Assembly (NCBI RefSeq): GCF_009905725.1
Contig: NZ_JAAAKV010000006.1
Location: 1 to 64,000 of the forward strand
Source of the DNA: Emticicia sp. CRIBPO
GTDB taxonomy: Bacteria; Bacteroidota; Bacteroidia; Cytophagales; Spirosomataceae
DNA: 64,000 nt
Reading direction: 5' to 3'
Below, in pieces: positions 3,001-19,895 of this stretch (its first letter is position 1; each line of letters opens with the position of its first letter). The notes below the pieces were generated by a model. It was not told the origin of the DNA. It saw nothing but the letters and a program-made list of their open reading frames with translations, and did no database searches. The position numbers and the translations under genes are program-made.

Positions 3001-4041
3001 TGCAGAGACAAAAGCCACGGTCAGGTTGGGCGTTTTGGAATTGTCTATCGCTAAAGCGGTTGTCTGGGTGTCATTCTGTCCTGCACAAACCTGTGGGTTC
3101 GGTCCATTGCCATACCAGGCGTTAAGACCTGTATTCAGGTCTGTGCAGCTGTTGATCTGCAGATTCTGTGTAAATGTAAAATATTCACTTTGCCCCAAGT
3201 GATTGTCCTGGGCGGTGCTGCTGACAATAAAGCGATACAAATAGGTGGTGTTGCTGCCCGAAGGCGTGCTGGAAATGAGGTCAACGGTGACAGTGGCTCC
3301 GTTGTTGGTCGTTGAAACCGAGTGGCTCAGATGGGCCACGCCATTGCCACTGAGGTCTGTCACGTAAACCGTATCAATACTACCGAAGCCGTCATTCCTG
3401 ATCTGGTAGGTACGGGTATAGGTGTCACCTACAGAACCGGCGGTGTTGGGTGCGTTAACCAGGTTGAGGATGTTTATTTTGGCATTCAGCAGGTTAAACG
3501 CGTTACTGAGAATTTCAGGCTGGGCAGACCCGCCTGAAGGTGTCAGCACATAAGAAGCCTGGTTTCCGGCTTCGCCTATGGCCTCGCAACTTGCACGGGC
3601 TTTATAGGTAAACGTAGCGTTGGTGCCTGTGGCCGGAATACCGCTGAGATTTAAAGTAGCCGTATTTCCTGAGACAGAGGTCTGGGTGACGGTAAGTCCT
3701 CCTGCTCCGGTGGCCGAGCCTGATTCATAGACATACCCGGTGGGAAGCGTAACGACCAGCGAGCCTGAAGAGGTCGTTCCTCCCAGGACGGTGACAGTAA
3801 ATTGTCTTGAGCCGTTGGCTACTTCAAATGAAGCCGTAGGGGCTCCGGTACCGGATTGTATCTGCTGGGCATTGGCCCCCATCGCAAATAATAATAAAAA
3901 ACTTAAAGTAAAACTGATAAAGGAGAATGATTTTCTCCCGGTTGGTAGAGCAGAGTCCTGTGGTTGCAGGTGTGAGGAATCATAACAAGGGCTAAACCCT
4001 TTGGATGATTTTCCAAAGAAAAGTAGATGTGTTTGGTTCAT
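1..4041 (-). CDS. Large secreted DUF11-like repeat surface protein (C-terminus outside window)
   Basis: An open frame of 1347 codons runs from ATG at 4041 off the left edge without a stop. It starts with an extended N-region and a Sec signal peptide (hydrophobic stretch about residues 39-54, likely cleavage ANA|QQ near residue 58). The rest is Thr/Asn/Gly-rich beta-sandwich sequence with phrases such as VTNTGTSPAMATNLRFGLG and VTNTGNVAEMANVW, typical of DUF11-like repeats in Bacteroidota surface adhesins. Cysteines are scattered in pairs, and an LPDDNNNGSVD stretch resembles a calcium-binding loop. A T9SS or gliding-associated tail is expected but lies outside the window. The gene has the TGTGACC-N16-GTCT box 50 bases upstream (4092-4123). 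The 36-residue extension before the signal peptide is unusual, but no better ATG exists upstream of the hydrophobic core. Plus-strand ORFs here are shadows. The family assignment is firm at the level of an exported repeat protein; the ligand is unknown. Confidence 0.85.
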   Translation of the reverse strand, partial: MNQTHLLFFGKSSKGFSPCYDSSHLQPQDSALPTGRKSFSFISFTLSFLLLFAMGANAQQIQSGTGAPTASFEVANGSRQFTVTVLGGTTSSGSLVVTLPTGYVYESGSATGAGGLTVTQTSVSGNTATLNLSGIPATGTNATFTYKARASCEAIGEAGNQASYVLTPSGGSAQPEILSNAFNLLNAKINILNLVNAPNTAGSVGDTYTRTYQIRNDGFGSIDTVYVTDLSGNGVAHLSHSVSTTNNGATVTVDLISSTPSGSNTTYLYRFIVSSTAQDNHLGQSEYFTFTQNLQINSCTDLNTGLNAWYGNGPNPQVCAGQNDTQTTALAIDNSKTPNLTVAFVSADDLSCAPASGWITASVTNTGTSPAMATNLRFGLGTYNAIMNPGIQNNYGNFASAWIDEADGVQISSDGGTTWSALPYTTSTTIGNAVNTDANGKPLDVIVTSLTIAPGQTIQIRFKKHIDCNSSCSLNEINFMKESLLSGSYKNSCGEGNYTLNFKDLRTYSYLRGKHVPEMGVDAVGGSPYWVQYKLNQWNITQNIWDNKLAGPGAYTEMLVNLPACLTADLSTLTLTDISGSGSVTPDMVFADAAGIHIRFNLAAGGGLDLQNKILRFKTMVDCAVACPSPQITSKIIFKQSATCPCTQVLGCSTWEPLLHCPACTLPLAIVNKESSGKRITLGLPDDNNNGSVDALGSNYPANLKTSYFTVGDQLEITATGEVAGVGSFDYAYLETTAPAQPALTLLGTTAKSVITDASTSTTYTLTGLPVSGTYPNFKTDISKAALVAAGVPATFTYEPGDKIAVTLTFDYPTTGNIIFNPDGSGHLTFNEEKTVIFKNLLYGGLAANPAPADQLACDAFSATMQHVGNNWFYGNGSRALSYNGCLPDDTGNGTYFASDINNYDSGRQQNAVFPYEINRFIQPKEFVFTLPAGLEAINTRITIYGQGGAPFVVNKATPDYITGQDYHYDLQAIINTLKGSSPSFFDEGMAIVSHPILRATCQASASGNLSNKIIYTYGTDPTVYTATNNWPYTVTSQGNLTAAATSPVKTVTGNTVSWEIQVTNTGNVAEMANVWLGRNAAGGGSVTITSVQQLPGSGAASGTAVSASGDIYQLGSIPASTSQYYLVTGTFNNCNQDNLQLAYGWNCSGYPTSVAAAVCSDDVDLTVIPTPANLQVSLLSQPVPTYPDGTVDLCQELEYIAEVKNPAQGTAFDLKFTVQKPAGVAYIANSYQLSPTILPAAASLANVNNDALVTETATSITFTIPASVAANLPYNQGYTIRYKVRTVACDFVSGTKMNLQALGNNGCGSAINGTRQQTQTVRIKGENANPNGYTISSAVPAVDACN

Positions 4042-4091
4042 TCTTTGCTTTTTGGATTACGAATGTTATAAATTGATCTTTATCAATTTGT

Positions 4092-4123
4092 TATTGAGAC
4101 GAAATAAAAATATCAAGGTCACA
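4092..4123 (-). promoter_or_regulatory. Promoter-like box G (TGTGACC-N16-GTCTCAATA)
   Basis: On the minus strand TGTGACC (4123-4117) is followed after exactly 16 bases by GTCTCAATA (4100-4092). The start codon of the large surface-protein gene is about 50 bases downstream. Spacing and sequence match the other boxes in this window. An ECF-sigma-type promoter is inferred, not shown. Confidence 0.6.
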
Positions 4124-4302
4124 ATCATCCGCAACTACCACCTCTGCAAGCAGTTAACATATACAAGGACAGTTCAAAAACACGTCTTACCTAACTATCT
4201 TAAACACAATAAATTACAACTCATTGATAATCAATAATAAAAAAATAATAAAATTTCACAAAGCCGATGACGAAGGCTGTCAACCTATAGTGACAGGTTA
4301 AG

Positions 4303-4331
4303 AAAGCCGGATAAAATAATTGTCCGGCTTT
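4303..4331 (-). terminator. Hairpin A1 of the AAAGCCGGA family
   Basis: A perfect 9-bp stem (AAAGCCGGA / TCCGGCTTT) with an 11-base loop. On the minus strand it is followed by CTTAACC, only weakly T-rich. It carries the conserved TACTAAAGCCGG entry sequence shared with hairpins B, C and D. It lies about 180 bases upstream of box G, so it would insulate the surface-protein promoter from transcription coming from the right. Confidence 0.55.
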
Positions 4332-4424
4332 AGTAAAGGTTCAATCTTACTTACTTACAACTATAAATCGCTTACTCGTCTATTCAAACTCTCACAACTC
4401 TCCAGGCCGCCGGTATTTATTAAG

Positions 4425-4455
4425 AAAGCCGGATGGAATATTGCCATCCGGCCTT
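4425..4455 (-). terminator. Hairpin A2 of the AAAGCCGGA family
   Basis: An approximately 12-bp stem (AAAGCCGGATGG / CCATCCGGCCTT, one non-Watson-Crick position) 60 bases downstream of box A on the minus strand. It ends in CTTTCTTAAT. With box A it defines a putative transcript of roughly 80 nt. Confidence 0.55.
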
Positions 4456-4514
4456 AGTGATGGTAACTTTTTTCAAAGTGTATTGTTACTAATTATTAAA
4501 TTCCATAGTGGTAT

Positions 4515-4546
4515 TATTTAGACGCAGACGCTGCCGGATGGTCACA
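4515..4546 (-). promoter_or_regulatory. Orphan promoter-like box A (TGTGACC-N16-GTCTAAATA)
   Basis: TGTGACC (4546-4540), a 16-base spacer and GTCTAAATA (4523-4515) on the minus strand. No gene follows before hairpin A2. The T-run of hairpin A3 directly abuts and overlaps the first bases of the box, so a terminator ends exactly where the next promoter begins. Confidence 0.55.
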
Positions 4547-4550
4547 AAAA

Positions 4551-4575
4551 AAAGCCGGATATAATAACCCGGTTT
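4551..4575 (-). terminator. Hairpin A3 with T8 tail
   Basis: CCGG/CCGG core with flanking AAA/TTT pairs and a bulged base. Read on the minus strand it is followed by eight T residues, a good intrinsic terminator. It would end minus-strand transcripts from the methyltransferase gene (stop at 4740). Confidence 0.6.
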
Positions 4576-4739
4576 ATCCTTCGTCGTATCATTGTATTTT
4601 TGGGGTTACTGAAATATAACATTAATCCGGCTGAAAGTAAGAGAGTAAAGGCTAACAAGTCGGGGCTCTTTCTGAAAAATACGCTTTTAAGACTCTGGTA
4701 TGGATATAAGAGTCTTAAGAGTGGTCATCCCGTGCGTTC

Positions 4740-6233
4740 TTACTCTTCCCCAAACACTCTTTTAAACCAGTTCTTTTTCCGGAGATTTAAAGTCCCCAAC
4801 TCTTTTTTTTCTAACACTACCAAATCCTGATACCCCATCAGCCCGGCATGTACATACTCTTTTATTTCAAAGAATTGAGACCAATACTTTCGCGTATATT
4901 TTTCAGTCTGAAAAACATCTCTGTAATAGCCCTGCGGAGCAATACCATCCAATGCAGGATCGAGATAACCATCCACTATTCCTTTTATTTTCATCTTCTC
5001 TTTAAGACCGCTGATTTGAGCCGCTGCCGTAAAACCGAGTACAGACACCACAAAAATACCCCCTGGTTTCAGTATCCTGGCAATCTCTTTAAGCCATAAC
5101 AGCTGGTTTTGTTTATCGAGGTGTGTCATTACAGAAGATGCAATGACAGAGGAGAATTGTTCATTAGCGAACGAAGTGGGGACATAGGGACTATTTACGA
5201 CAAATTTACCTCCTCTAATATTGTTATTGCACCAGGCAATGGCTTCAGTATCAATATCGGACCCCGTATACAAAACCCGCGGCCACTTTTTTATAATATG
5301 ATTGGAATATCGCCCACACCCACATCCCCAGTCAAGCAAACCAGGTTCTTTTGAGTGATCATATTTTTGTACATAAGACATCATCTGAGAAGATCCCTGT
5401 ATGCCGTTAAGTACAAAAATCCTATCGTCTGAAGTACCTGAAATACGAAATCGTAAATCAGGCGGCGGTAAAGGAGTTTCTTTATATGCTTGAGAAAGAG
5501 AGACAAGCCCGGCAATATGATCTGTTTGATGAAGCTTCCGGGTTTCAACTTCCTGCTGAAGATGCTCAACAGCAGTGACCGGCTTTAATTTACATCTACT
5601 GCAAACGCAATTTAAATTGCCTTGTAATAACGATTCTCGCAAATGGGAGATTCCCTTCGATAAAGTGTCTATTTCTTTAAAATTCCACATGGCAGGCAAT
5701 TGACTACAAGGAGACCACTCGCCATGAAGACCAACGGGGTTTTCTTCCCATGGTTCAAAGCATAAACGTGTTTCATTTAACAAAGGGATATTCTTTTTAT
5801 CTTCTGTTTCTTTTACCGTCTTATAAAAATCACTAAAGGTTTTTAAGCTATAGGCTTCTGAGCCTGTAGACAGCAAAATTATGGCCCCGATCTTCGTAAC
5901 CAATCTGGATTGGTTTTCAAAGATGTAATCTGAATTACTGTTTTTCTGTGCCTGCTGAACTAAATGTTTCATTCCTTCATTTAAAGGAATCCTGACATCT
6001 TCATTCCTGTAGTTTTTAAATTGAATAAAGCTAAAGTCCGGGCAAACCGCTGACCACTTTGAATGCTCGGCTTGTTTAAAATCTACTTGATTAAGCATGG
6101 CGTCAAAGCAAAAATTCACAAGGTACTCATCGCCCACGTAATTCGTTATAAACTGAATATACCCGCTCAACGGGTCTGAGCTATGAGGAGCTTTTAACTT
6201 ACCCATATAAAAAAAGAAGTCCCTTATTTCCAT
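4740..6233 (-). CDS. SPASM/Twitch-like domain fused to SAM-dependent methyltransferase
   Basis: 497 aa. The C-terminal half is a class I methyltransferase: motif I LLDWGCGCGRYSNHI (about residues 299-313), then SDIDTEAIAWC and a VIASSVMTHL/ILKPGGIFVV core. The middle carries a Twitch/SPASM-like cysteine pattern: C158, a glycine four residues before C176, and CSRC at 211-214. This is the auxiliary [4Fe-4S] module usually attached to radical SAM enzymes. The radical SAM CxxxCxxC core is absent; the first 150 residues look like a remnant of such a core's C-terminal half. The gene stands alone on the minus strand next to plus-strand glycosyltransferases, so modification of a glycan or of a glycosylated protein is the likely role, by inference. 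The methyltransferase call is firm; the substrate is unknown. Confidence 0.8.
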   Translation of the reverse strand: MEIRDFFFYMGKLKAPHSSDPLSGYIQFITNYVGDEYLVNFCFDAMLNQVDFKQAEHSKWSAVCPDFSFIQFKNYRNEDVRIPLNEGMKHLVQQAQKNSNSDYIFENQSRLVTKIGAIILLSTGSEAYSLKTFSDFYKTVKETEDKKNIPLLNETRLCFEPWEENPVGLHGEWSPCSQLPAMWNFKEIDTLSKGISHLRESLLQGNLNCVCSRCKLKPVTAVEHLQQEVETRKLHQTDHIAGLVSLSQAYKETPLPPPDLRFRISGTSDDRIFVLNGIQGSSQMMSYVQKYDHSKEPGLLDWGCGCGRYSNHIIKKWPRVLYTGSDIDTEAIAWCNNNIRGGKFVVNSPYVPTSFANEQFSSVIASSVMTHLDKQNQLLWLKEIARILKPGGIFVVSVLGFTAAAQISGLKEKMKIKGIVDGYLDPALDGIAPQGYYRDVFQTEKYTRKYWSQFFEIKEYVHAGLMGYQDLVVLEKKELGTLNLRKKNWFKRVFGEE

Positions 6234-6393
6234 AAAACATCTACGATTACAAGGGCCTAAAAAAAATACAACCCGTTGATTTTAAGCACAATAACATCAA
6301 AACTAACTCTTAAGAAAGCAGAGACCGGAACAGTCCTCCCTTGCTGATCTCCCTGTCGAAAAGTGGGTAAGTTAACATTTACGTCATAAATAA

Positions 6394-6618
6394 ATATCTT
6401 TCTCTGCAATAAATTTTGAAATTAAATGCCCCCTGCGACGGTCTCATCGACACATCATCATCCCCCTTGGTAAATTCTTTCGGGCAGGCATAATTCCCGG
6501 CCAGGTACAATCAAAAGAAAAGAAAATACTTAAGCAAAACACCATTCCGGATTTTAAAGAAGGAATTTATAAAATGAAATTTTCGGTAAAAAGCACAAGT
6601 TTAATTTTTGAAGATTAA
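6394..6618 (+). pseudogene. Possible decayed 3' end of a coding sequence
   Basis: In the 447-base gap before the first GT2 gene, one plus-strand frame is open for 74 codons after a stop and has no start codon. Its end reads like protein (IPDFKEGIYKMKFSVKSTS, then LIFED and a stop). The G-I-Y-x-M-x-F-S-V pattern recalls the C-terminal carbohydrate-binding fold of Wzt-type polysaccharide ABC proteins, but this is a weak impression only. No promoter or other gene is seen in the rest of the gap. Confidence 0.25.
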
Positions 6619-6680
6619 TATTATCTTGCAACCGGAACATCAGAATTACACTCAATTTTCTGGTATTAAAATCTCAACAA

Positions 6681-7412
6681 ATGAAAATATCCGTCTGTCT
6701 TGCCACTAAAAATGGTGAACTGTTTATAAAAGAGCAAATAGACTCTATCCTTCCACAACTTGCTTACAATGACGAATTAATTATTTCAGACGACAATTCC
6801 GATGACAGAACTTTATCTATTTTGTACGCTTACCACGATTCGAGAATAAAGATTTACAGAAGCACTTATAATAATCTTGTTAAGAATTTTGAGTTTGCCC
6901 TTGAAGTGGCCAAGGGTGATTACATTTTTCTCTCCGATCAGGATGATGTCTGGCTGGAAAACAAAGTAGAAGTAATGTTACCCTTTCTAAAAGAATTTGA
7001 TATGGTAGTCTCAAATGCGGTGGTAACGGATGAAAGTTTGAAACCGTTATTTAACTTTTTCAAAAGACCGGCGTCTGTGATGAATAACGACCCCGCAATC
7101 TTAAAAATTTTAAGATCACCAACCTCAGGATGTTGTATGGCATTCACACGCCCCCTTCTTGAGAAGGCATTGCCTTTCCCTTCAAATATGTATATGCACG
7201 ACCGATGGCTCTGGGCTATATCATGTGTTTTCGGAAAGCCATTGATAATAGACGACCCTTTAATCTTATACAGAAGACATAAGTCCAACTTTACTAACCT
7301 TAATAATCACGACCCGGTAATTCTTGGTAAAAGCCATGCCAGTCTCCGGAAAAAAATTCACTTAAGATATCTGCTCATGTCAAACCTTCTTCACAAAATT
7401 GTGTTTTTCTAA
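6681..7412 (+). CDS. Family 2 glycosyltransferase
   Basis: 243 aa, GT-A fold. Starts MKISVCLATKNGELFIKEQI with the usual GT2 entry strand, then IISDDNSDDRT (nucleotide-sugar-binding Asp) and LSDQDDVWLENK (about residues 90-100), the DxD-like motif and WlxxK signature of rhamnosyl/galactosyl-type GT2 enzymes. It lacks membrane segments and should act at the cytoplasmic face, adding a sugar to a growing lipid-linked or protein-linked glycan. The same domain recurs as the C-terminal half of the GT4-GT2 protein 2 kb downstream. The gene is AT-rich compared with flanking housekeeping DNA, as is the whole cassette. Donor and acceptor cannot be read from sequence. Confidence 0.88.
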   Translation: MKISVCLATKNGELFIKEQIDSILPQLAYNDELIISDDNSDDRTLSILYAYHDSRIKIYRSTYNNLVKNFEFALEVAKGDYIFLSDQDDVWLENKVEVMLPFLKEFDMVVSNAVVTDESLKPLFNFFKRPASVMNNDPAILKILRSPTSGCCMAFTRPLLEKALPFPSNMYMHDRWLWAISCVFGKPLIIDDPLILYRRHKSNFTNLNNHDPVILGKSHASLRKKIHLRYLLMSNLLHKIVFF

Positions 7413-7545
7413 AGAGTACATTGGTCAAATAAAAAAAACTTCTTTTTTTTGTAAAACTTTCTGAGATCAACATACGTAAGGTCTCAAGAATTAGCACATA
7501 AAAAACTCCATTTAATAAAACGATTCACAGTAAGATAATTATAAA

Positions 7546-8388
7546 ATGATCTACCTTTCGTTAGTAATATACGATAGTCCGCCCGATGATCTTAGAAGGT
7601 TAGTACAATCCCTAAAGATAATTTCTACTCCATACAAGCTATGGGTAATCAACAATTCTCGAAAAATCAATTACGAGCCTCTTTTTGATGATATCCCTTG
7701 CATTAAGTATGTTCAAAATAAAAAAAACGAGGGATTCGGGAAAGCTCACAATATGACTCTGGCAGCTGCAAAAGCACATGGTATCAAATATGTATTTGTA
7801 ATAAACCCTGATATCTATTTTTACGAGGATATTTCTGTACCGATACTGAATTTTATGGACAAACATAAAGATGTTGGTATGCTCATGCCAACCATTTTAA
7901 ACACAGACGGGACAAAACAGCATTTACCCAAGCTATTACCAAACCCTGCTCTGGTTTTGCTCCGAAAATTAAACTTACGCCACAGTAAATTAGTATCCGT
8001 CATCGACAACTATGAGCTACGCCATGCCCCGAAGGAGAAAATCTTTGAAACTCCGAATATTTCCGGATGCTGTACGGTCATCAGGACCGAAATTCTCGGA
8101 GAAACCGGGTACTATGATCCCCGCTTTTTTCTTTATTTTGAAGACTGGGATCTTTCCAGAAGGGTTTTCAAAAGACACAAAACGATACTTTTCCCGTTTG
8201 TAAATATCTTTCATTCCCGCAGTTCACAAAAAAAAACAAGCTTAAAAAAGTTGACGCATTATTTTATTTCATACTTGAAATATTTCAACAAATGGAGCTG
8301 GCTTAATGAAGAGGAGAGAAAGAGCGTAAATGATCGAATTTTTGCGGGTTTTAAAAATGACTTATGTCATTTGAAGAAAGTGGTATAA
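7546..8388 (+). CDS. Family 2 glycosyltransferase, WbbL/rhamnosyltransferase-like
   Basis: 280 aa. Starts at ATG 7546 (MIYLSLVIYDSP). It shows NKKNEGFGKAHNMTL (about residues 60-75), then VFVINPDIYF (the DxD-like metal site) and the distal RFFLYFEDWDLSRRVFKRH. These are hallmarks of the WbbL/WcaA-type GT2 clade that transfers rhamnose or related sugars during polysaccharide assembly. No signal peptide or TM segment. The 133-base gap to the upstream GT2 and the 184-base gap to the downstream acetyltransferase, with the same strand and AT-rich composition, suggest one functional cassette. Specificity is inferred from family only. Confidence 0.87.
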   Translation: MIYLSLVIYDSPPDDLRRLVQSLKIISTPYKLWVINNSRKINYEPLFDDIPCIKYVQNKKNEGFGKAHNMTLAAAKAHGIKYVFVINPDIYFYEDISVPILNFMDKHKDVGMLMPTILNTDGTKQHLPKLLPNPALVLLRKLNLRHSKLVSVIDNYELRHAPKEKIFETPNISGCCTVIRTEILGETGYYDPRFFLYFEDWDLSRRVFKRHKTILFPFVNIFHSRSSQKKTSLKKLTHYFISYLKYFNKWSWLNEEERKSVNDRIFAGFKNDLCHLKKVV

Positions 8389-8572
8389 GCTTAATATTAT
8401 AAATTAAATCTTTTAGAAATTCCGGCGACATTATGAAGTCAATAAAAAAGGAAGATCTGATACCAGTCATAAAGCCTGAATAAATCTGAATTAATACGAT
8501 AATGTATATTTTAAGTTTTCAATATAGAATTCAGGAACAATTAAACCGCTTAAACGCAAATCGAATTACAAA

Positions 8573-9241
8573 ATGAAAAAGCTTATCATCTGCGGCACAG
8601 GAGCACAATCGGAGTTAGCCTATATCTATTTCAGCAAAGACTCTGACTATGAAGTAGTTGCATTTACTGTTGAACAAGCTTATCTCAGAGAAACCCATCT
8701 TCTGGGATTGCCCGTTTTTCCATTTGAAGAGATAGAAAAATACATAAGTCCTGAGGAAGCAGACATGTATATCGCGATCGGCCCCATAAAATTGTGTTCC
8801 GTAATGGAACATTTCTGCATAGCAGCTAAAGGGAAAGGATACACGCTGGCCAGCTATTGTCCTACTGTAGTAAAGAATTATTTTGAACCTTCTTATGGAG
8901 AAAATTGCTTCATCGATCACGTAGCTCAGTTTCATCCACTTGTCAAAATAGGAAACGGCGTGACGATAATGAACTCGGAAATAGCCCATCACTCAGAAAT
9001 AGGTGACTTTTCATTTCTAACCTGTGCCATGCTGGGAGGGAGGGTAATTGTCGAAGATCATGTTTTTATCGGAATGAAAACCGTTATAAAAGAAGGAGTC
9101 CGAATTGGCAAAGGCAGTATCATCGGTATGGGATGTGTTATTACCAAAGATGTGGAGCCCTATTCTGTCTACAGTGTTTCGGGTACTAAAGCCAGAGAAG
9201 GAGTTGACTCCCGGGACATCGAACTGTTTAGAAAACAATAA
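8573..9241 (+). CDS. NeuD/PglD-like sugar O- or N-acyltransferase
   Basis: 222 aa. An N-terminal Rossmann-like PglD_N domain (KKLIICGTGAQSELAYIYF, residues 1-90) is followed by a left-handed beta-helix of hexapeptide repeats (about 95-205: VKIGNGVTIMNSEIAHHSEI, GDFSFLTCAMLGG and onward). The AHHSEIGDFS histidine pair matches the general-base region of NeuD/PglD/PerB enzymes, which acetylate an amino or hydroxyl group on a sugar using acetyl-CoA. It stands 25 bases before the GT4-GT2 gene and is probably co-transcribed with it. It likely prepares or decorates the sugar transferred by the neighbouring glycosyltransferases. The acceptor is unknown. Confidence 0.85.
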   Translation: MKKLIICGTGAQSELAYIYFSKDSDYEVVAFTVEQAYLRETHLLGLPVFPFEEIEKYISPEEADMYIAIGPIKLCSVMEHFCIAAKGKGYTLASYCPTVVKNYFEPSYGENCFIDHVAQFHPLVKIGNGVTIMNSEIAHHSEIGDFSFLTCAMLGGRVIVEDHVFIGMKTVIKEGVRIGKGSIIGMGCVITKDVEPYSVYSVSGTKAREGVDSRDIELFRKQ

Positions 9242-9266
9242 GTGACTGTCTCATAAAGGTGCCCTA

Positions 9267-11528
9267 ATGCATAACAATACAAGAAAAATATTATTCATAA
9301 CTTCAGGAGACCAAACCGGTGCCAACACCGCCCTTATAAAAATTGCCGAAGCACTGCATAATCAGGAACACCGGGTTGCCGTTTTGGTGCGAAACAAAAG
9401 TGAGTACAATCCCATAGTAACTCAACTGCCGGCCCGGAACGGGTATGCTTCGGAGCTTGGTTTCCTGATAAATAAAAACGGTTCAAAAACAAGACTTAAC
9501 AGAGACCCCAAATACCTTTTCAATACAATAAATGAAGAAAACTCTTACCAGGATACTACCGTTATACTTAAGCACCTTTCATTTATACCCGAGATTATCT
9601 TTGTAGGCATCACTTTCGATTTTCTTACCTCGACTGATATTCTAAAACTTTCAGAAGCGACATTAGCCACCGTTTATAACATGGCTGTTGACATGAATCA
9701 CTTTACAGGGGGGTGTCATTTTGCATGGGACTGTACAGGGTACATAAAGGGATGTAACAGCGTTGACTGCCCTGCAGTATTGGATCCAGAATACAAAGAG
9801 TTGGTTTCGAGAAATTTCTCTATAAAAAAAGAAAATGCACAGAAAGGAAACTTCAAGATTCTGGCAGGAACAAAATGGACGGCAACTCAGGCACAGGATT
9901 CATTGATTTATAAAAATCAGCAACCCATTTTCAATATTCCCGGAATCATTGAAACCGGGATTTTCAACCCGGGAAAAAGGAAAATTGCCAAGGAAGTATT
10001 TGGGCTTTCAGACGACAAATTCTATATTCTGGCAGGAGCAGAAAACACCCTTGACCCCCGCAAAGGGTACATCTATTTCGTAAAAAGCCTCCATGCTTTC
10101 TGGGAGAAATTATCACAGTCGGAGCGGGAAAAGGTAGAGGTTTTGTCGTTAACCCGTATAATAGACGAAGAATCGCACAAAGAAATCAGGTTCAAAAAAA
10201 CATTTATTCCATATATCAAAGATGACCGCCTCCTGGCATTGATGTATCAGGCAGCCGACGCCTATGTAAACAGCTCACTGGAAGATTCCGGTCCGGCCAT
10301 GCTGATAGAAGCCATGGCTTGCGGGGTACCCGTGGCATCTTTTAATATGGGGGCAGCACAAGACTATATAACCAATGAACAAACCGGTTATATCGTCGAA
10401 AATAAAAATCACGAAGCACTTGCCGTTTCATTGTTGAGGATATTCCGGGCCACATCTGACGAACGCTTAGTCATGGGAGAAAAAGCATTTGCCGCCATTT
10501 CAGAGAAAGGGTCTATGAATCAAGCTATGAAAACCATGGATCAGCTGTTTAAGCATGAACAGCAAGATTTTTTTTCTCAATGCAGGTCGATATCTGTGGC
10601 GTTATGCACACATAATGGAGAAAAACATATAAAAGAACAATTGGAAAGTATCCTGAACCAAAACCTGGTAGCCGATGAAATAGTTATATGTGATGATGCC
10701 TCTACTGACCAGACCTGGAATATTCTCGAATCGTACAGAACCAGATATCCGCAGGTTTTCAGGATTTACAAGAATAAAAAGCAACTCGGAATTGTAAAAA
10801 ACTTTGAGAAGGCAATAAACCTTTGCTCCCGGGAAATCATTTTTTTATGCGATCAGGACGATGTCTGGTTCCCTCATAAAACCGAAACGGTAATCCGCGT
10901 TTTTAACAGGTTTCCCCATATTGAAGCTGTATCTCATAACCTGCAGATATGTAAGGAAGATAATGAATTGACAGAATACTCCATCTGGGATACCATGGGC
11001 TTCGGTTTTTTCCAACAACAGAAGTACCCCGATAAAGACTATTTTTCTCATACTTTGTTCTTTGGCAATATGGTTACCGGGGCTGCACTCTGCATAAAAA
11101 AACCAAGAGAACCGCTTATTTTTCGTGAGGGCTACCCAAAGGTTATCCATGACTACCAATTGGGGATTGAGTACCTGTCAAAAAAAACCATGCACTTTCA
11201 TCATGAAAACCTGGGACTATACCGTCAGCACGAGGAGCAACAAATAGGGCCGGTATTAGATAAAATTGACCAACATGAAAAATCCATTAACATATATTAT
11301 GCCGCTAATATTCCGATACTGAATCTGATTCATATAGCCCGACGGGAATATAGTGAAGATATCTTCCGGTACATAAAGCATACCAACGATCAGTATCTGA
11401 TACGTTTAGCAAAACAAGCAAAAATAAACCAACTGAAAAATTGCTTCCGGTTAAAAATCTGGACGGATGTGATTAAACTTATACTTCGCAAACTCACTGA
11501 AAAACTTCTTTCCTTTTTGAAAGGATAG
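9267..11528 (+). CDS. Bifunctional GT4-GT2 glycosyltransferase fusion
   Basis: 753 aa with two catalytic domains. Residues 1-430 form a GT-B family 4 enzyme. It has an insertion with the Cys/His motif HFTGGCHFAWDC (145-156) and CNSVDCP (163-169), typical of a GT4 subgroup, and the nucleotide-sugar E-x7-E region SLEDSGPAMLIEAMACGVPV (337-356). Residues 440-753 form a GT2 enzyme with SVALCTHNGEKHIKEQL, ICDDASTDQT and CDQDDVWF (528-535), closely resembling the GT2 at 6681. Two transferases in one chain imply sequential addition of two sugars. It is the last gene of the cassette; an array of promoter-terminator modules on the other strand follows. No membrane segment, so cytosolic. Confidence 0.87.
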   Translation: MHNNTRKILFITSGDQTGANTALIKIAEALHNQEHRVAVLVRNKSEYNPIVTQLPARNGYASELGFLINKNGSKTRLNRDPKYLFNTINEENSYQDTTVILKHLSFIPEIIFVGITFDFLTSTDILKLSEATLATVYNMAVDMNHFTGGCHFAWDCTGYIKGCNSVDCPAVLDPEYKELVSRNFSIKKENAQKGNFKILAGTKWTATQAQDSLIYKNQQPIFNIPGIIETGIFNPGKRKIAKEVFGLSDDKFYILAGAENTLDPRKGYIYFVKSLHAFWEKLSQSEREKVEVLSLTRIIDEESHKEIRFKKTFIPYIKDDRLLALMYQAADAYVNSSLEDSGPAMLIEAMACGVPVASFNMGAAQDYITNEQTGYIVENKNHEALAVSLLRIFRATSDERLVMGEKAFAAISEKGSMNQAMKTMDQLFKHEQQDFFSQCRSISVALCTHNGEKHIKEQLESILNQNLVADEIVICDDASTDQTWNILESYRTRYPQVFRIYKNKKQLGIVKNFEKAINLCSREIIFLCDQDDVWFPHKTETVIRVFNRFPHIEAVSHNLQICKEDNELTEYSIWDTMGFGFFQQQKYPDKDYFSHTLFFGNMVTGAALCIKKPREPLIFREGYPKVIHDYQLGIEYLSKKTMHFHHENLGLYRQHEEQQIGPVLDKIDQHEKSINIYYAANIPILNLIHIARREYSEDIFRYIKHTNDQYLIRLAKQAKINQLKNCFRLKIWTDVIKLILRKLTEKLLSFLKG

Positions 11529-11657
11529 CGGAGTCCAGAAATGGAACAAAATAGGAGAAATTTAAAACCAGCCTGAGATATATAATCCATTAAACAGGAA
11601 CTCAGAGCTGATAAGGAAAACCTCCAAAAACCGCTGCAACATCCTTATAAATTAAAA

Positions 11658-11687
11658 AAAGCCGGATAAACATCGTCGCCCGGCTTT
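11658..11687 (-). terminator. Hairpin B with T7 tail
   Basis: An 8-bp stem AAAGCCGG / CCGGCTTT, followed on the minus strand by TTTTTTTAAT, a strong intrinsic terminator. It lies 48 bases downstream of box B. Confidence 0.65.
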
Positions 11688-11734
11688 AGTAACGTGTTTA
11701 AAGTCATAACAACTTAAATTTTATCACTACTCAT

Positions 11735-11766
11735 CATTTAGACTGCGTTAACGAAAAATAGTCACA
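11735..11766 (-). promoter_or_regulatory. Orphan promoter-like box B (TGTGACT-N16-GTCTAAATG)
   Basis: Minus strand TGTGACT (11766-11760), 16 bases, GTCTAAATG (11743-11735). A terminator follows within 48 bases instead of a gene. Confidence 0.55.
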
Positions 11767-12023
11767 CCTGCTACTAAATTATTGCTTTACTATACTGAAA
11801 AGCCAGCCAATACAGGGCTGGAAAACCTGGGAAATCGGTGATAAAGAAATCCGGGTGAAATGTCTACCCGGATTTGGTCATATTTCCCGCTAAACTCAAA
11901 CTTGCAACACAAATCAAAGTTTCGGCTTTATATTGGTTCAAATTCACTGTCTACTTTTAAAATACCATCTTCTGGCTTGAATAATTAAAATTTATACAAA
12001 AAAACTATATCCAATTGCTGAAG

Positions 12024-12050
12024 AAAGCCGGATGAAAACCCTCCGGCTTT
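12024..12050 (-). terminator. Hairpin C
   Basis: A perfect 9-bp stem AAAGCCGGA / TCCGGCTTT, followed by CTTCAGC on the minus strand. It lies 46 bases downstream of box C and is the near-copy of the module B hairpin. Confidence 0.55.
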
Positions 12051-12095
12051 AGTAAACTCTTTAAATTCATACAACTTAATTTTATCACTACTCAG

Positions 12096-12127
12096 TATTT
12101 AGACTATGTCAGAGAAAAATGGTCACA
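12096..12127 (-). promoter_or_regulatory. Orphan promoter-like box C (TGTGACC-N16-GTCTAAATA)
   Basis: Minus strand TGTGACC (12127-12121), 16 bases, GTCTAAATA (12104-12096), the exact consensus in both halves. The sequence after it is about 75-80% identical to that after box B. Confidence 0.55.
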
Positions 12128-12187
12128 CCAACCCCTGAAGAAACATCCATTCATACAAGACTTTATAGGCCGCATTGTCAGATAAAA

Positions 12188-12215
12188 AAAGCCGGACGAA
12201 AACCCATCCGGCTTT
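12188..12215 (-). terminator. Hairpin D with T7 tail
   Basis: A perfect 9-bp stem AAAGCCGGA / TCCGGCTTT with TTTTTTTATC after it on the minus strand. It has no box of its own directly upstream. Confidence 0.65.
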
Positions 12216-12283
12216 AGTAGCGGCTAAATCTACACAACTAATAAACCCTTTCAACGAAGGTTAATGTAATTCCAGGATTAAAG

Positions 12284-12313
12284 AAAGCCGGATAGAGATC
12301 CTCATACGGCTTT
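12284..12313 (-). terminator. Hairpin E
   Basis: A 10-bp stem with one mismatch (AAAGCCGGAT / ATACGGCTTT), followed by CTTTAATCC on the minus strand, 36 bases downstream of box E. Confidence 0.5.
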
Positions 12314-12348
12314 TGTAAACATGAACAAAATCTATTTTCTGTCACTTT

Positions 12349-12380
12349 TATTTAGACGGGAAATCGTAAAAACAGTCACA
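12349..12380 (-). promoter_or_regulatory. Orphan promoter-like box E (TGTGACT-N16-GTCTAAATA)
   Basis: Minus strand TGTGACT (12380-12374), 16 bases, GTCTAAATA (12357-12349). It lies downstream of the terminator of the 12536-14182 gene, so it is not that gene's promoter. Confidence 0.55.
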
Positions 12381-12445
12381 TCATTTGTATCAATAAGATA
12401 GGGCTTTTTATCGGTTACATTTAAACAGCCGGTAAGGCTCAGACA

Positions 12446-12477
12446 AAAAAAGAGGGCGTCTTTATCAGACGCCCCCA
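12446..12477 (-). terminator. Intrinsic terminator of the 12536-14182 gene
   Basis: The GGGGGCGTCTGATAAAGACG stem-loop (arms GGGCGTCT / AGACGCCC) followed by a run of seven T residues on the minus strand, 60 bases after the stop codon. Confidence 0.8.
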
Positions 12478-12535
12478 TTCATATTAACAGGGCGGCTTGG
12501 ACTCATTTAAAGTATGATCTTAATCTCAGTGCTTT

Positions 12536-14182
12536 TTACTGCATCAACAGCCTTTTTACCACTACTTTATTGTTCTTGTCTCTTACCGTCAGATAGTATT
12601 GACCCATCGTCATATTGGGTACATGTAACTCATACTGGTTGGTATCTGTTTTCAGGGTTTGAATACCTGCCCTTACGCCCAGCACGGTTCTCAGTTCGAA
12701 CACCGGTTCGTCCATATTGGTCGTCAGGTTGATCACTCCACCGGTCGATGGATTTTCAACCACCAGGTAGCTGCCATCTTTTTCATAATATACAGAGATC
12801 ATCTTAGAAACGGCCGATGATCCGTCAAGGTCAACCATTTCCAGCTGGTAATAGTTATCTCCTTCGGCCACTTCAGCATCCGTGAAGCTGTATTGTCCGT
12901 TGCTGCTTCCTCCGCTTACTTTGCCAATGGCTTCAAAGTCTTTGGCATTAAGGCTTTTCTTTACTTCAAAGTGGCTGAAGTCCGTTTCTTCGGCCGTTTT
13001 CCAGGTCAGATTTACTTTATCTCCGTCTACTTTCCCTTCAAAACTGACCAGTTTTACAGGAAGTACCGCACAACTGTAGTTGTAAGTGACCGTGGCGGTG
13101 GCGTATCCTTTTGTGGCGATCTTGAATTTTACATTGCCCCCGAAAGCTGTAAAACTATTATCTGCGATCACATCAGCAGTCAGACCGACATCCCCTGATC
13201 CGCTAAACATAGCTAGGTCGGATGCGGAAGTATAAGAAGAACTACTTGAATTTGACCCTTGGCCAAGATAGTGTATCATATCATCATCAGTAGATGCCAG
13301 ACCCGTCACGTTGGTAACCCAGGCTGAGCTCAAGGTAGGGTCAGCAAATATATTCTGCATATAATCTGCCAATCCTAATGATTCTGAAGTAGTCATTGTA
13401 AATAATGTTCCTCCACCCTCGGGTGTATCGCCGGGCCAGGTGGAGCCGTTAGTACCTGCCGGAACAAGGACGCTGTGCCCGATGGATATCAATCCGGAAT
13501 TCAGAACCGGATCATTATAAGTCTGAAGCGTTGTTCCGCCTAACTTAACGGTAGCCTCTCCGTTCAGAATTTCCTCGGCAAACTGGCTGCCGGTGTTACT
13601 TGAGTTTTCAGCAACAAACGCTGTAGCCAGAGTGTAAGAAGTTCCCAGACCGACACTCGTCAAGGTCCTTGTACCACCATTGGTATCAAACTTCGGAATA
13701 AACAGCGGAACATTTCTAAGATTGGTATGCAGAAACGGCGACCTGTAGGTATAGCTCACGCTGCCTGGCGAACAGGGTGCGGCAGCTGAAGAACAGGTGC
13801 CAGGATCAGAAAGTGTAACGGTACCCGTACAACCTCCGCTGCTGGTGATAGTCAATGTGACACTACCGTGACCGGCGGTGCCTGTCGGGGTTCTGAAAGG
13901 GCTCTCATAGCCGAAATACAATCCGGAAGCCGAAGAGCCATCACTGAGGGTTATGGTAATCGGGCTGCCCCCTTGTGTGGCAGATACGCTGTAGTTGTGA
14001 TTCAGATCTCCTTTAGAGACATCGCCGTCCAGCAGAAAAGTAATGTAGTCATCACCGGCATTCGCCACCGTGCCGTTATCATGACAGGAAACACTGCTCA
14101 GCAAAGGGGTAAGTGTGGGGCACTGGGCCTGGGTTTGGAACCAACATGCAGTCCCAAAGATAAGTACGTACAATTTTTTCAT
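12536..14182 (-). CDS. Secreted choice-of-anchor-E-like protein with T9SS type A sorting tail
   Basis: 548 aa. A Sec signal peptide (MKKLYVLIFGTACWFQTQAQ, cleavage near residue 19) is followed by a Thr/Ser/Gly-rich beta region with a Cys-containing head. A middle domain (about 130-370) matches the choice-of-anchor E pattern (SVSYTYRSPFLHTNLRNVPL, then FIPKFD). Then come VLPVKLVSFEGKVDGDKVNL and a fibronectin-like FSHFEVKKSLNAKDFEAIG module commonly placed before Bacteroidota sorting tails, and a C-terminal T9SS type A domain (about 475-548, ending VVVKRLLMQ). It should be exported by Sec, then by T9SS, and fixed on or released from the surface. Box F lies 61 bases upstream and a strong terminator follows, so it is monocistronic. 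The ligand is unknown. Confidence 0.88.
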   Translation of the reverse strand: MKKLYVLIFGTACWFQTQAQCPTLTPLLSSVSCHDNGTVANAGDDYITFLLDGDVSKGDLNHNYSVSATQGGSPITITLSDGSSASGLYFGYESPFRTPTGTAGHGSVTLTITSSGGCTGTVTLSDPGTCSSAAAPCSPGSVSYTYRSPFLHTNLRNVPLFIPKFDTNGGTRTLTSVGLGTSYTLATAFVAENSSNTGSQFAEEILNGEATVKLGGTTLQTYNDPVLNSGLISIGHSVLVPAGTNGSTWPGDTPEGGGTLFTMTTSESLGLADYMQNIFADPTLSSAWVTNVTGLASTDDDMIHYLGQGSNSSSSSYTSASDLAMFSGSGDVGLTADVIADNSFTAFGGNVKFKIATKGYATATVTYNYSCAVLPVKLVSFEGKVDGDKVNLTWKTAEETDFSHFEVKKSLNAKDFEAIGKVSGGSSNGQYSFTDAEVAEGDNYYQLEMVDLDGSSAVSKMISVYYEKDGSYLVVENPSTGGVINLTTNMDEPVFELRTVLGVRAGIQTLKTDTNQYELHVPNMTMGQYYLTVRDKNNKVVVKRLLMQ

Positions 14183-14243
14183 TTTTTTAACTTTTACTTT
14201 TTAGTTTATTATCTACAGACCTCTTAAAGGACCTCTGTAAAGA

Positions 14244-14275
14244 TATTTAGACGGTATTGCAGGCCGCTGGTCACA
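14244..14275 (-). promoter_or_regulatory. Promoter-like box F (TGTGACC-N16-GTCTAAATA)
   Basis: Minus strand TGTGACC (14275-14269), 16 bases, GTCTAAATA (14252-14244), ending 61 bases before the ATG of the T9SS protein gene at 14182. This is the best evidence that the box is a working promoter element, since it fronts a clear gene at normal leader distance. Confidence 0.65.
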
Positions 14276-14282
14276 CATAGGC

Positions 14283-14760
14283 GTTACGGGTAAAAAGAGA
14301 GGCTGTTAAATGAGGCCCCTTAAAACACTGAAAATAAACACATTGAATAAATCATAAAAAAGTACAAATTTTTCACGTAAGAGATGTTACAGTTATTACC
14401 CGGGAGATGCTTCCGGGCTGGCATAAACGGACCGATCAAACGGAGTCAGAGGCCGTGTTTTCTGCAGACACGTAGGGTCGTGTATACCTTGCTAAAAGAG
14501 ACCGGATAGAAACACAGCCTGTCACATCTCTTCTGTAGATGTGTTCCGGTTAAAAAAACCGGCAGGCTATGGGTTTCTGATTTAAATGTTCAACCGGGAG
14601 CTGTGGATTCTCTCATCTGTGCTATAAGTTTTTTTAAGCTTTTTGTGGTAAAGAACCGGATGTCATTGTGACTATTTAAAAATCCTGCGTCAAATAGAAT
14701 ACCGGAATTTCTTCTGACATGCCGGAGTTGTTTAAATTTAAGATGGATAAAAAAAAAGTG
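14283..14760. other. Gene-free structured spacer
   Basis: No convincing gene. Between 14500 and 14580 the sequence is rich in nested complementarity: an AGAAACACAGCCTG arm matches a CAGGCTATGGGTTTCTG arm, an inner ACATC/GATGT pair, and CCGGTTAAAAAAACCGG. It may be a folded RNA leader or leftover repeat. A 79-codon minus-strand frame here lacks family features. Confidence 0.35.
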
Positions 14761-14798
14761 ATTCTCAGTGAACGCTGTTTGCTGAGAATTTTTCTTTG
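14761..14798 (+). terminator. Hairpin with T-tract upstream of the lactonase gene
   Basis: ATTCTCAG / CTGAGAAT arms with a 13-base loop and TTTTTCTTT behind on the plus strand, 20 bases before the lactonase start codon. A9 on the left side makes it partly bidirectional. It is either an attenuator in the lactonase leader or the end of an upstream plus-strand RNA. Confidence 0.6.
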
Positions 14799-14818
14799 AG
14801 GGCTTAGCAGTATATCCA

Positions 14819-16009
14819 ATGAAAAACAAAAGAGTCTGTTTATTTCCATATATATTTGAATTTAAATGTATTCATCCTAAAACATCTCCGGCATTCGTGA
14901 ATAGATATATACTGGCCTTACTACTCATGGGCTCTAAAGTTTTTGCCCAGCAGGAATATGTTTTCCTGGGATCTTATAACCACGACAAGGAGGCAGAAGG
15001 CATCTATGTCTATCGATTAGACGCTGTCAGCGGGAAACTCACCAAAGTCACTTCCGCTAAGATCCGGAATCCCTCCTATTTAACTGTTTCGCCCGATTCA
15101 AGATTTGTATATGCCTGTACCGACACCAAAACGCCCAATGCAGGAAGTGTAAGTGCGTTTGCATTTGACCCCGCAAAACACACCCTGACTTTTCTTAACA
15201 GCCAGAGAAGCGGAGGCGAAAACCCGGTCTACCTAAGCACAGACAAGGACAACAAATGGCTGATTAACGGAAATTACACAGAGGCAAGCTTTTCGGTTTA
15301 CCCGATCCTGGCAAACGGGAAAATTGATACTGTGGTACAGCACGAAACATTTACCGAAGGCAGTGTAAATCCCCTCAGGCAGGAAAAAGGGCATATCCAT
15401 GCAGCAGTCTTTTCACCCAAAGGCGAACAGGTCTTTTTTCCTGATTTAGGGGCAGACAAAATCAGGATGTACCCTTTTAACGGCTCTTCTGCATACCCTG
15501 TAACGACAGATAAGGCTGATTTTGTAAAAACGGAACCGGGAAGCGGCCCCAGGCACTTTACCTTCAGTCCGGACGGTAATTTCGCCTATTGTATCGAAGA
15601 GATGTCAGGCACCCTTTCTGCCTACGCTTATAAGGAAAACCATCTGACAGCCATACAAAGGATCGCTACACATCCTGCCAGCCTGCAAAGCGGCTTTGAA
15701 AGCTCCGATGTGCACATTTCGCCGGATGGAAAGTTTCTGTATGCCACCAACAGGGGAAAGGAAAACAACATTGCCATCTTTAAAATTGTTGAAAACGGCA
15801 CTTTAGAGCACATCGGGTACCAGTCAACGCACGGAAAACACCCGAGGACATTTGCCATCACAGAGTCAGGAAATTTCCTGATCGTCACCAACGTGCTTAC
15901 CCATAATGTGGTGGTTTTTAAAAGGAATAAAACCACGGGCCTGCTCAGAAAAGCAGGGAGAAAAGTGAAGGTAAAAAATGTCTCCTGTGTAAAAACCGGC
16001 AGTATCTGA
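14819..16009 (+). CDS. Exported lactonase-family beta-propeller protein (YbhE/Pgl fold)
   Basis: 396 aa of the 6-phosphogluconolactonase/lactonase beta-propeller family: EYVFLGSYNHDKEAEGIYVY opens blade 1, followed by repeated blades (SPDSRFVYACTD, SPKGEQVFFPDLGADKI, GSGPRHFTFSPDGNFAYCIE, SPDGKFLYATNRGKENNIA, HGKHPRTFAITESGNFLIVT). The conserved GPRH and HGKHPR arginine/histidine residues are present. A signal peptide ends KVFAQ|QE. The annotated ATG gives a 28-residue extension before the hydrophobic part; a GTG at about 14900 (VNRYILALLLMGSKVFAQ) is a plausible alternative start. Export makes a cytoplasmic pentose-phosphate role unlikely; hydrolysis of sugar lactones made by the envelope dehydrogenases is possible but inferred. 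Confidence 0.85.
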   Translation: MKNKRVCLFPYIFEFKCIHPKTSPAFVNRYILALLLMGSKVFAQQEYVFLGSYNHDKEAEGIYVYRLDAVSGKLTKVTSAKIRNPSYLTVSPDSRFVYACTDTKTPNAGSVSAFAFDPAKHTLTFLNSQRSGGENPVYLSTDKDNKWLINGNYTEASFSVYPILANGKIDTVVQHETFTEGSVNPLRQEKGHIHAAVFSPKGEQVFFPDLGADKIRMYPFNGSSAYPVTTDKADFVKTEPGSGPRHFTFSPDGNFAYCIEEMSGTLSAYAYKENHLTAIQRIATHPASLQSGFESSDVHISPDGKFLYATNRGKENNIAIFKIVENGTLEHIGYQSTHGKHPRTFAITESGNFLIVTNVLTHNVVVFKRNKTTGLLRKAGRKVKVKNVSCVKTGSI

Positions 16010-16098
16010 CAATTTCACAAATGCTGCTTTTCTTTCCTTAGCAGACGACTATCACCGGGCCTGCCCCCGCCAGGCCCCACTCTTTTTTCCTCCAATTT

Positions 16099-16130
16099 AG
16101 TGACCTTTTTGGACAGTGTACGTCTCAAAG
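16099..16130 (+). promoter_or_regulatory. Promoter-like box H (AGTGACC-N16-GTCTCAAAG)
   Basis: On the plus strand AGTGACC (16099-16105), 16 bases, GTCTCAAAG (16122-16130), 94 bases before the ATG of the T9SS protein at 16225. It deviates from consensus at the first base of the -35-like half and in the -10-like tail, but keeps the core and exact spacing. Confidence 0.5.
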
Positions 16131-16224
16131 ATATGGGTCTGAACTTCAAGCCTTCCGTTTACATAATAAGGTTCGGAATTATGACCCTGCCTCTTCAAGA
16201 ATTTTTACACTAAAAACAAAAAGT

Positions 16225-17286
16225 ATGAAACAGTTTCTACTCTCTATTCCTTTGCTGCTAAGCAGCGTGCTCGCCAATGCACAATCTACTACCTTCTGTA
16301 TTCCGTCAGCGACAGCAACCGCTGAAGTGGATTCAAAGATTGGTACGCCACCTGTCTGGAGCAATGTTTCGCAGGCTGCCGACAACAACAATTCCACCTA
16401 TGCCACCGCTACTTTTGTGGCTATCCCAGGCAGTTCGCATGCCTCCATTACTTTTGATCTGGGAACAACCGTCGCGGCAGGATGTTCTGTCAGGTTCAAA
16501 GTAGGAACCTCAATACCATCGGCAGGGGCATTTATACAAATAAGTACAAATGGCGGCCAGAATTTTGACCCCACAGGCACCGTGCCGCCTCTTTCAGGAG
16601 ACTACGTAGGAGACACCGGCCCCTCAGATGCTGACGGATTTGTGTTAACGGCAGCAGCAAGCACTGTGACTATCGGACTGGCGGTTCTCGGCGGCAATGT
16701 CTATTCCGGCGAATTTTATGTTTACGATGTGGAAACCAACTGTAACTGTACGGTATTGCCGGTAAACCTGGTCTCATTTACAGCCCTTAAAAATAATGGA
16801 TCATCGCAACTTCACTGGTCAACTTCCGTAGAAACCGACAACAGGGGTTTTGAAGTACAACAAAGTACCGATGCCAAAAACTGGAAAGCCATCGGCTTCG
16901 TATCCAGTGAAAGCACCAACAGCACCCGTCAGATTGACTATACCTTTACAGATGAAGCCCCTGAAACAGGCGTTAACTATTACAGGTTAAAACAAATAGA
17001 CATTGACGGCACCTTCAGCTACAGCCCGATCAAATCCGTCAGGTTTACAGAGGAGAAAAACCCGCTGACCCTGGGAGCTAACCCGGCTTCTGAATCGATT
17101 AACCTGGCCGGTAACCTAAGCCAGATCAAAAGCATGAAAATTGCCGATTCATATGGCAGGATCATGATCAGCAATATTACACCCAAAAACAAAATAGAAA
17201 TCAGCGAACTGCCTAAAGGCGTTTATCTCCTCCTGATCGAAACCACCTCGGGCGGAAGGATCAGTAAGAGGTTTGTGAAGGAGTAG
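16225..17286 (+). CDS. Secreted T9SS type A sorting-domain protein
   Basis: 353 aa. Signal peptide MKQFLLSIPLLLSSVLANAQ. A small beta-sandwich follows (about 20-170) that reads like a discoidin/lectin-like fold (SNVSQAADNNNSTYATATFV, SITFDLGTTVAAGCSVRFKV), then NCTVLPVNLVSFTALKNNGS, a fibronectin-like module (NRGFEVQQSTDAKNWKAIGF), and a C-terminal T9SS tail (about 275-353: NPASESINLAG ... LPKGVYLLLIE ... ISKRFVKE). It shares its module order and box-type promoter with the 12536-14182 protein, so both probably belong to one surface-protein regulon. A strong terminator follows 20 bases after the stop. Binding target unknown. Confidence 0.87.
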   Translation: MKQFLLSIPLLLSSVLANAQSTTFCIPSATATAEVDSKIGTPPVWSNVSQAADNNNSTYATATFVAIPGSSHASITFDLGTTVAAGCSVRFKVGTSIPSAGAFIQISTNGGQNFDPTGTVPPLSGDYVGDTGPSDADGFVLTAAASTVTIGLAVLGGNVYSGEFYVYDVETNCNCTVLPVNLVSFTALKNNGSSQLHWSTSVETDNRGFEVQQSTDAKNWKAIGFVSSESTNSTRQIDYTFTDEAPETGVNYYRLKQIDIDGTFSYSPIKSVRFTEEKNPLTLGANPASESINLAGNLSQIKSMKIADSYGRIMISNITPKNKIEISELPKGVYLLLIETTSGGRISKRFVKE

Positions 17287-17306
17287 GTCCTCAAAATAAT
17301 TAATGC

Positions 17307-17340
17307 ACAACCCGGGGTTTGTTCTCCGGGTTGTTTTTTT
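17307..17340 (+). terminator. Intrinsic terminator of the 16225-17286 gene
   Basis: ACAACCCGG / CCGGGTTGT stem, short loop, then seven T residues. Confidence 0.85.
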
Positions 17341-17479
17341 GGGTATATGAAATGTGACATCGCAGAGAGAAATGAATCAACACAGAGTTACCGGACACAT
17401 TAATCATAATTTCATATTTCTTTCCCAACCTCCAGACACAAGTAAACTTTCAGGTCAATGTAAACCTTACAATTTTCAT

Positions 17480-17487
17480 TAACTTTG
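17480..17487 (+). promoter_or_regulatory. Bacteroidota -7 box (TAACTTTG)
   Basis: An exact TAnnTTTG match 32 bases before the ATG at 17519. No clear -33 TTTG is seen. Confidence 0.45.
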
Positions 17488-17518
17488 AATCAAATCAACC
17501 AAAACCGGATAATTGGTT

Positions 17519-18085: not shown

Positions 18086-18139
18086 CCCAGGTTCATTGAC
18101 AGCCTTGCATATATTACTCATTTTTGTAAAAAAAATAAA

Positions 18140-19303: not shown

Positions 19304-19447
19304 AATTAAGACCCACCTGTTAACTTTAAATCGTGATGAAAAGGTGCAAAGAAAGGTATTCAGTATTTTCAGAACTTAATATTTTCCACTGACATAGGGT
19401 TGTCACCGGGCCGTTTTACTTTTGATTAAACAATAAATGAAATCAAA

Positions 19448-19870: not shown

Positions 19871-19895
19871 ATCGAAAAAGGAATTCGCAGAATGA

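Follow-up and report, generated by a model that had tools for sequence, protein, structure and literature searches.

A two-part promoter-like box, probably of the ECF kind, precedes exported-protein genes, peptide precursors and short terminator-ended units in Emticicia sp. CRIBPO

The window, by which we mean the whole 64,000-nt stretch analyzed (positions 1 to 64,000 of contig NZ_JAAAKV010000006.1), contains seven copies of a 30-base motif, TGTGACY-N16-GTCTMAA. Six copies are exact, and the seventh, box H, has one mismatch. Boxes G, F and H front the genes listed with them here.

1..4041, minus strand: gene of box G, truncated by the contig end; its product is an exported repeat protein with a weak DUF11-type repeat match below cut-off
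4094..4123, minus strand: box G, exact; 52 nt to the ATG of the large repeat-protein gene
4517..4546, minus strand: box A, exact; no gene between it and box G downstream
11737..11766, minus strand: box B, exact
12098..12127, minus strand: box C, exact
12351..12380, minus strand: box E, exact
12536..14182, minus strand: gene of box F; encodes an exported protein of 548 aa whose choice-of-anchor E and T9SS tail matches both fall short of cut-off, narrowly or clearly
14246..14275, minus strand: box F, exact; 63 nt to the ATG
16099..16128, plus strand: box H, one mismatch; 96 nt to the ATG
16225..17286, plus strand: gene of box H; 353-aa protein with a T9SS C-terminal sorting domain

All seven sites had been picked out in a sequence-only reading of the window, and all are present on the strands given there. 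The sites were correctly located, but the 30-base motif is 2 bases shorter than the spans assigned to them (box G, for example, is 4094-4123), and the distances of 50, 61 and 94 bases reported for G, F and H match the 52, 63 and 96 measured from the 30-base motif. It had also been stated that no other gene in the window shows the box; the remaining sites found all have three mismatches, and the total at three mismatches, 17, is at the level expected by chance (mean 14.8).

The protein of box F was tried as a synteny anchor and set aside; it has matches in 20 of 24 genomes, mostly to its T9SS tail, and its body has a clear match in G011 only (39%, residues 21-377). Among named relatives the box-H protein has one weak match, in a Chitinophagaceae MAG (33%, residues 186-353). 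Contigs C36, C5 and C18 end within box-fronted surface-protein genes (window:1-4041; L004; L177; L025), and the genes at these ends have paralogues on other contigs, as though repeats broke the assembly.

The seven boxes are real. The 6.06-Mb genome of the organism contains 12 copies of the exact motif, versus 0 for a reversed-pattern control. A genome scan allowing one mismatch, as the earlier reading had proposed, gave 30 sites versus 8 for the reversed control, so some of the one-mismatch sites are due to chance. When TGTGAC and GTCTMAA were sought at every spacer from 9 to 39 bases, 23 sites were found: 13 at a spacer of 16, five at 15 and five at the other 29 lengths, with nine sites in all for the reversed control. 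The spacer had been described as exactly 16 bases; that length is indeed preferred, but 15 is also used, and the constancy of the original list arose partly from the pattern chosen. The halves are conserved independently of the spacer, as had been claimed. Mean pairwise identity, calculated for 12 of 13 sites with one paralogue dropped, is 0.93 and 0.96 in the two boxes versus 0.30 in the spacer, and is 0.27 and 0.34 in the flanks. GTCT is invariant in all 13 sites, as is the GAC core of the -35 box, and C precedes GTCT in eight of them.

Downstream features were tabulated for 18 sites in the genome that have TGTGAC, a spacer of 15 or 16 and GTCTMAA, one of them with G instead of Y. An ORF starts 31-63 nt downstream of 11 of these sites; five others (A, B, C, E and L226) are followed at 20-110 nt by a strong terminator, with no ORF of at least 50 aa starting near, and two have neither. 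Under a loose rule that accepts any ATG, GTG or TTG frame of at least 50 aa within 110 nt, 54.6% of window positions qualify and 11 of 18 is not above chance (P 0.38). The promoter case therefore rests on long ORFs. Seven of the 18 sites (L004, L005, L006, L025, G, F and L225) have a same-strand ATG ORF of at least 190 aa 44-63 nt downstream, compared to 1.44% of window positions under a wider criterion of 25-70 nt; our arithmetic gives about 4 × 10-9, for a count that includes the paralogue pairs G/L004 and L006/L025. The conclusion that the box is placed like a promoter is supported by its strand, its distance to long ORFs and its preferred spacing.

The 11 ORFs near exact sites comprise seven with signal-peptide-like starts (judged by eye), three that are lasso-leader-like by NCBIfam leader models, all under cut-off, and one that is DUF1444-like. 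The proposal that the box might define a surface-protein regulon was largely right. Among the sites with a spacer of 15, L223 fronts a lasso-leader-like precursor, L225 fronts an exported protein, L226 precedes a terminator-ended unit without an ORF, L224 has a T9SS-tailed protein 240 nt away, and L222, close to a contig end, has nothing clear downstream. At L001 the box lies 46 nt from a 436-aa ORF with a GTG start, the head of a same-strand ORF run that includes two proteins with T9SS tails; upstream of L001 are three tandem peptide precursors (two boxed) and an HprK-related kinase-like ORF. At L174:13476-15420 (G000:C1, about 690-692 kb) three tandem lasso-leader-like precursors with Gly-Ser-rich tails have as neighbours an HprK-related kinase-like ORF and several T9SS-tailed proteins in a row; a cyclase was not identified at that locus.

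One-mismatch boxes front a lasso-like precursor that adjoins an asparagine-synthase-like cyclase (L024/L175), a PorU2-type sortase gene, and genes with DUF937-like, BON-LysM, MscS-type channel and response-regulator domains. Given these targets, the regulon is not exclusively one of surface proteins. At L175:3903-6011 (G000:C13) the lasso-like precursor stands behind a box-type promoter with the cyclase adjoining, and at L223 (G000:C12, about 167 kb) a lasso-like precursor with a box-type promoter has an ORF of similar appearance nearby (by eye).

Boxes A, B, C and E, to which the sequence-only reading had assigned no role, each precede a short terminator-ended unit and no gene. These units and the hairpins related to them are as follows.

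4298..4396, minus strand: unit A2; related hairpin, box degenerate or absent
4421..4512, minus strand: candidate RNA A; terminator hairpin 4426-4454
11653..11732, minus strand: candidate RNA B; terminator hairpin 11658-11687
11842..11948, minus strand: unit CB; lacks a good box; its hairpin is arranged in the same way; weak model match
12021..12093, minus strand: candidate RNA C; terminator hairpin 12026-12048; close paralogue of B
12183..12259, minus strand: unit EC; lacks a good box; its hairpin has the shared stem
12279..12346, minus strand: candidate RNA E; terminator hairpin 12284-12313

The layout at A, B, C and E consists of the box, an AT-rich stretch, a hairpin of the GCCGG...CCGGC type (imperfect in E) and a T-rich tail, and at all four a strong intrinsic terminator lies 38-63 nt past the box. 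The background frequency of strong terminators 25-110 nt downstream is 3.07% of window positions; because the four array units are paralogous, their terminators do not count as independent cases. The close paralogy of B and C runs from the -35 box through the terminator; A and E are more distant. The box columns are intact in the four units, and the sequence from box to hairpin differs. Compared with shuffled sequences, the fold of A is better (z-score -4.2), the folds of B and C are moderately so (-2.1 and -2.2) and that of E is not (-0.8), and covariation in the stem is slight, with a double change in two of 11 stem pairs. On the minus strand there is no ORF longer than 125 aa from B to position 6233, and B, C and E therefore do not act as the leader of any gene; A and A2 are located upstream of box G and its gene. 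A cluster of methyltransferase and glycosyltransferase genes (window:4740-11528) splits the array in two halves.

An Rfam search of window positions 1-20000 returned nothing over the gathering score and one chance match below threshold (E 0.31). In a small test, pairing of the candidate RNAs with 28 window genes was no better than that of 15 shuffles per RNA. Unrelated box-terminator units are present elsewhere in the genome, at C1:8811 and, with one mismatch each, at C1:857750 and 857863; the latter two form a tandem pair (L179:3751-4000) with sequences unlike the window array. The most likely products of the short units are small RNAs of about 65-90 nt.

Exact sites were found in 15 of 118 relatives, with 33 sites versus 15 for controls. 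The three genomes of genus g32 contribute 15 sites versus 0 and genome G072 four versus 0; outside these, 14 sites versus 15 controls is chance level. A terminator is found at five of the 33 sites (L078, L098, L090, L096 and L104; background 3.95%). An ORF of at least 50 aa accompanies three of these as well (L078, L098 and L104), and the other two, L090 and L096, come from one genome and are identical; L078 and L098 have common bases just past the box, and both adjoin the end of a groEL-like gene (by eye). Under the loose ORF rule 26 of the 33 sites qualify, modestly above chance (P 0.0035, calculated with the window rate).

A broader pattern, TGTKACY-N16-GTCTHAA, gave 22 sites versus 3 for the control in nine genus mates. 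The form TGTKACC-N16-GTCTAAA, in which position 4 is T or G, lies 32-38 nt ahead of the same Zn_peptidase_2 gene in seven genus mates, so that 7 of 10 genomes in the genus carry this box; the organism's own Zn_peptidase_2 gene (L219) has no box in the 110 nt upstream. Three genus mates have the broader box, of TGTTAC type, about 195 nt ahead of an rpoN-like, sigma-54 gene (L137, L147 and L152; Pfam match for L137), a position that suggests one sigma factor may control another. In another stretch from a genus mate (L184 and L146; G004:C9, 42.9-50.8 kb) a broader-box PqqD-like gene, a T9SS-tailed protein and PorU2 occur within 8 kb. PorU2 was considered as a conserved member of the boxed set and rejected: 12 of 28 other loci were scanned and none is boxed, with a best score of 4.1 versus 21.7 in the own genome. 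A covariance model of the array found no homologues outside the own genome among 58-59 genomes, with 64 first-look candidates per genome and stricter filters, and because the scan was filtered this absence in relatives is not firm. The best match outside the own genome, in G081 (E 0.05), proved to be a gene-end terminator without a box.

In ECF promoters the -35 and -10 elements are separated by a constant distance of about 15-17, with a CGTC or GTC core at -10 and usually an AAC core at -35. The -35 core of the box, GAC in the own genome and TAC or GAC at genus orthologues, differs from AAC. Taking as our basis the observed box, its spacing, its strand and distance to ORFs, the terminators and the paralogy of the units, we consider it probable, though far from certain, that the box is a promoter for an ECF-type sigma serving a set of surface or exterior genes together with a short-RNA family at A, B, C and E. 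An alternative ECF-type sigma would read TGTGACY at -35 and, after 15-16 bases, (C)GTCTMAA at -10, and would turn on a gene set specific to the lineage, encoding proteins exported by the T9SS, large repeat proteins and precursors of lasso-leader-like peptides. From the same promoter at A, B, C and E it would drive a local family of short RNAs (about 65-90 nt), probably untranslated, that would stop at their own intrinsic terminators. The array RNAs may be regulators, perhaps of exported proteins, by analogy with the sigma-E-dependent sRNAs of enterobacteria.

It is common, though not universal, for a sigma gene to lie under its own promoter. The genome has 44 matches to sigma region 2, and the 44 loci (140,969 bases) contain no box by strict or relaxed patterns at either spacing. 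An autoregulated sigma gene was therefore not retained as a candidate: the best weight-matrix score in these loci, with start codons guessed as the first M, is 6.6 versus 22.3-28.0 for the training sites. The earlier suggestion of an ECF promoter is supported as to the promoter, by strand, distance and spacing; with 0 of 44 sigma loci boxed, the ECF assignment is one that we only infer.

The lack of a boxed sigma gene would also suit a box that is a transcription-factor site near ordinary promoters and not itself a promoter, and two-part sites with fixed spacing are appropriate to dimeric regulators too. However, the halves make a poor inverted or direct repeat, and the uniform orientation toward the gene, the distance of 31-63 nt and the -35/-10-like spacing are those of a promoter, which makes this explanation unlikely. 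If the promoter is real, A, B, C and E might still be decaying remnants of local duplication that yield no functional RNA. A good box is missing from three of the seven hairpins, no homologues were seen in 58 relatives (filtered scan) and there is no target-pairing signal, as would be expected of remnants; yet the box is intact in four units though the interval between box and hairpin differs, and the unrelated box-terminator units at C1:8811, 857750 and 857863 lie outside the array. We regard decay as a lesser possibility, on balance doubtful.

It is highly improbable that the short units encode peptides of about 20 residues. Possible similar frames of about that length do run across the hairpin in B and C (by eye), but the frame is absent from A, E, EC and A2, and the T-rich terminator falls inside it. 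The hairpin loops differ in length by non-multiples of three, so that no reading frame is common to the family.

An ECF-type promoter with a short-RNA family remains our preferred reading. A more speculative extension of it, which we hold only tentatively and think less likely to be right than wrong, is that one ECF-type sigma couples T9SS proteins, lasso-type peptides and a recently amplified sRNA array whose RNAs would reduce the synthesis of exported proteins. Such a system would parallel sigma-E with MicA and RybB and would have arisen independently, by local duplication of a promoter-terminator unit.

The sigma-E-dependent sRNAs MicA and RybB, and FoxJ of Fusobacterium, are short terminator-ended RNAs made from an alternative-sigma promoter beside an envelope regulon. 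If transcribed, the candidate RNAs described here would resemble them in being short, terminator-ended and placed behind a promoter of alternative-sigma type. Unlike them, the candidates belong to another phylum and form a local paralogous array, and the likeness, as far as excerpted accounts of those systems extend, is one of layout.

For comparison, the SM6 (ECF-type) promoters of Flavobacterium psychrophilum have a CGT box at -10; porU and gldN, both T9SS genes, are among their targets, as is one putative regulatory RNA, Rfp11 (PMC9723704, in excerpt). Shared with the present case are a -10 of presumed ECF type, a link to T9SS genes and the presence of a putative or candidate small RNA. The published SM6 list includes an ECF sigma/anti-sigma pair, whereas none is among the boxed genes here, which are mostly cargo and peptides, plus a local RNA array; this comparison draws on excerpts that lack the full SM6 logo (PMC9723704). 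In Porphyromonas gingivalis T9SS expression is likewise linked to an ECF sigma, SigP; this sigma targets components of the T9SS, and the motif reported for it, C(T)AAA(G/C/T)A(T)A(C)T(A/G)A, is unlike the box when compared by eye (PMC4800418, in excerpt). A transcriptome of Bacteroides thetaiotaomicron is also available (PMC7366714, in excerpt). A literature search of titles and abstract openings, with few subscription papers, found no description of the box or the array. Within the compass of these partial sources, the candidate small-RNA array of this promoter-like box, probably of the ECF kind, looks unreported, and ECF-type promoters of T9SS genes and of one sRNA are reported in F. psychrophilum (PMC9723704).

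By analogy, the regulon marked by the box would comprise surface proteins and peptides as well as candidate small RNAs, and would recall sigma-E with MicA and RybB. Sigma factors are numerous in the Bacteroidota, with 44 region 2 matches in this genome alone, and for one of them the box supplies a promoter code that can be tested. A single regulon would join the cargo of the T9SS and the lasso-leader-like peptides to the candidate small RNAs. Should the array RNAs control exported proteins, sigma-dependent sRNA control of the envelope would gain a further case in this phylum, in the unusual form of an amplified array.
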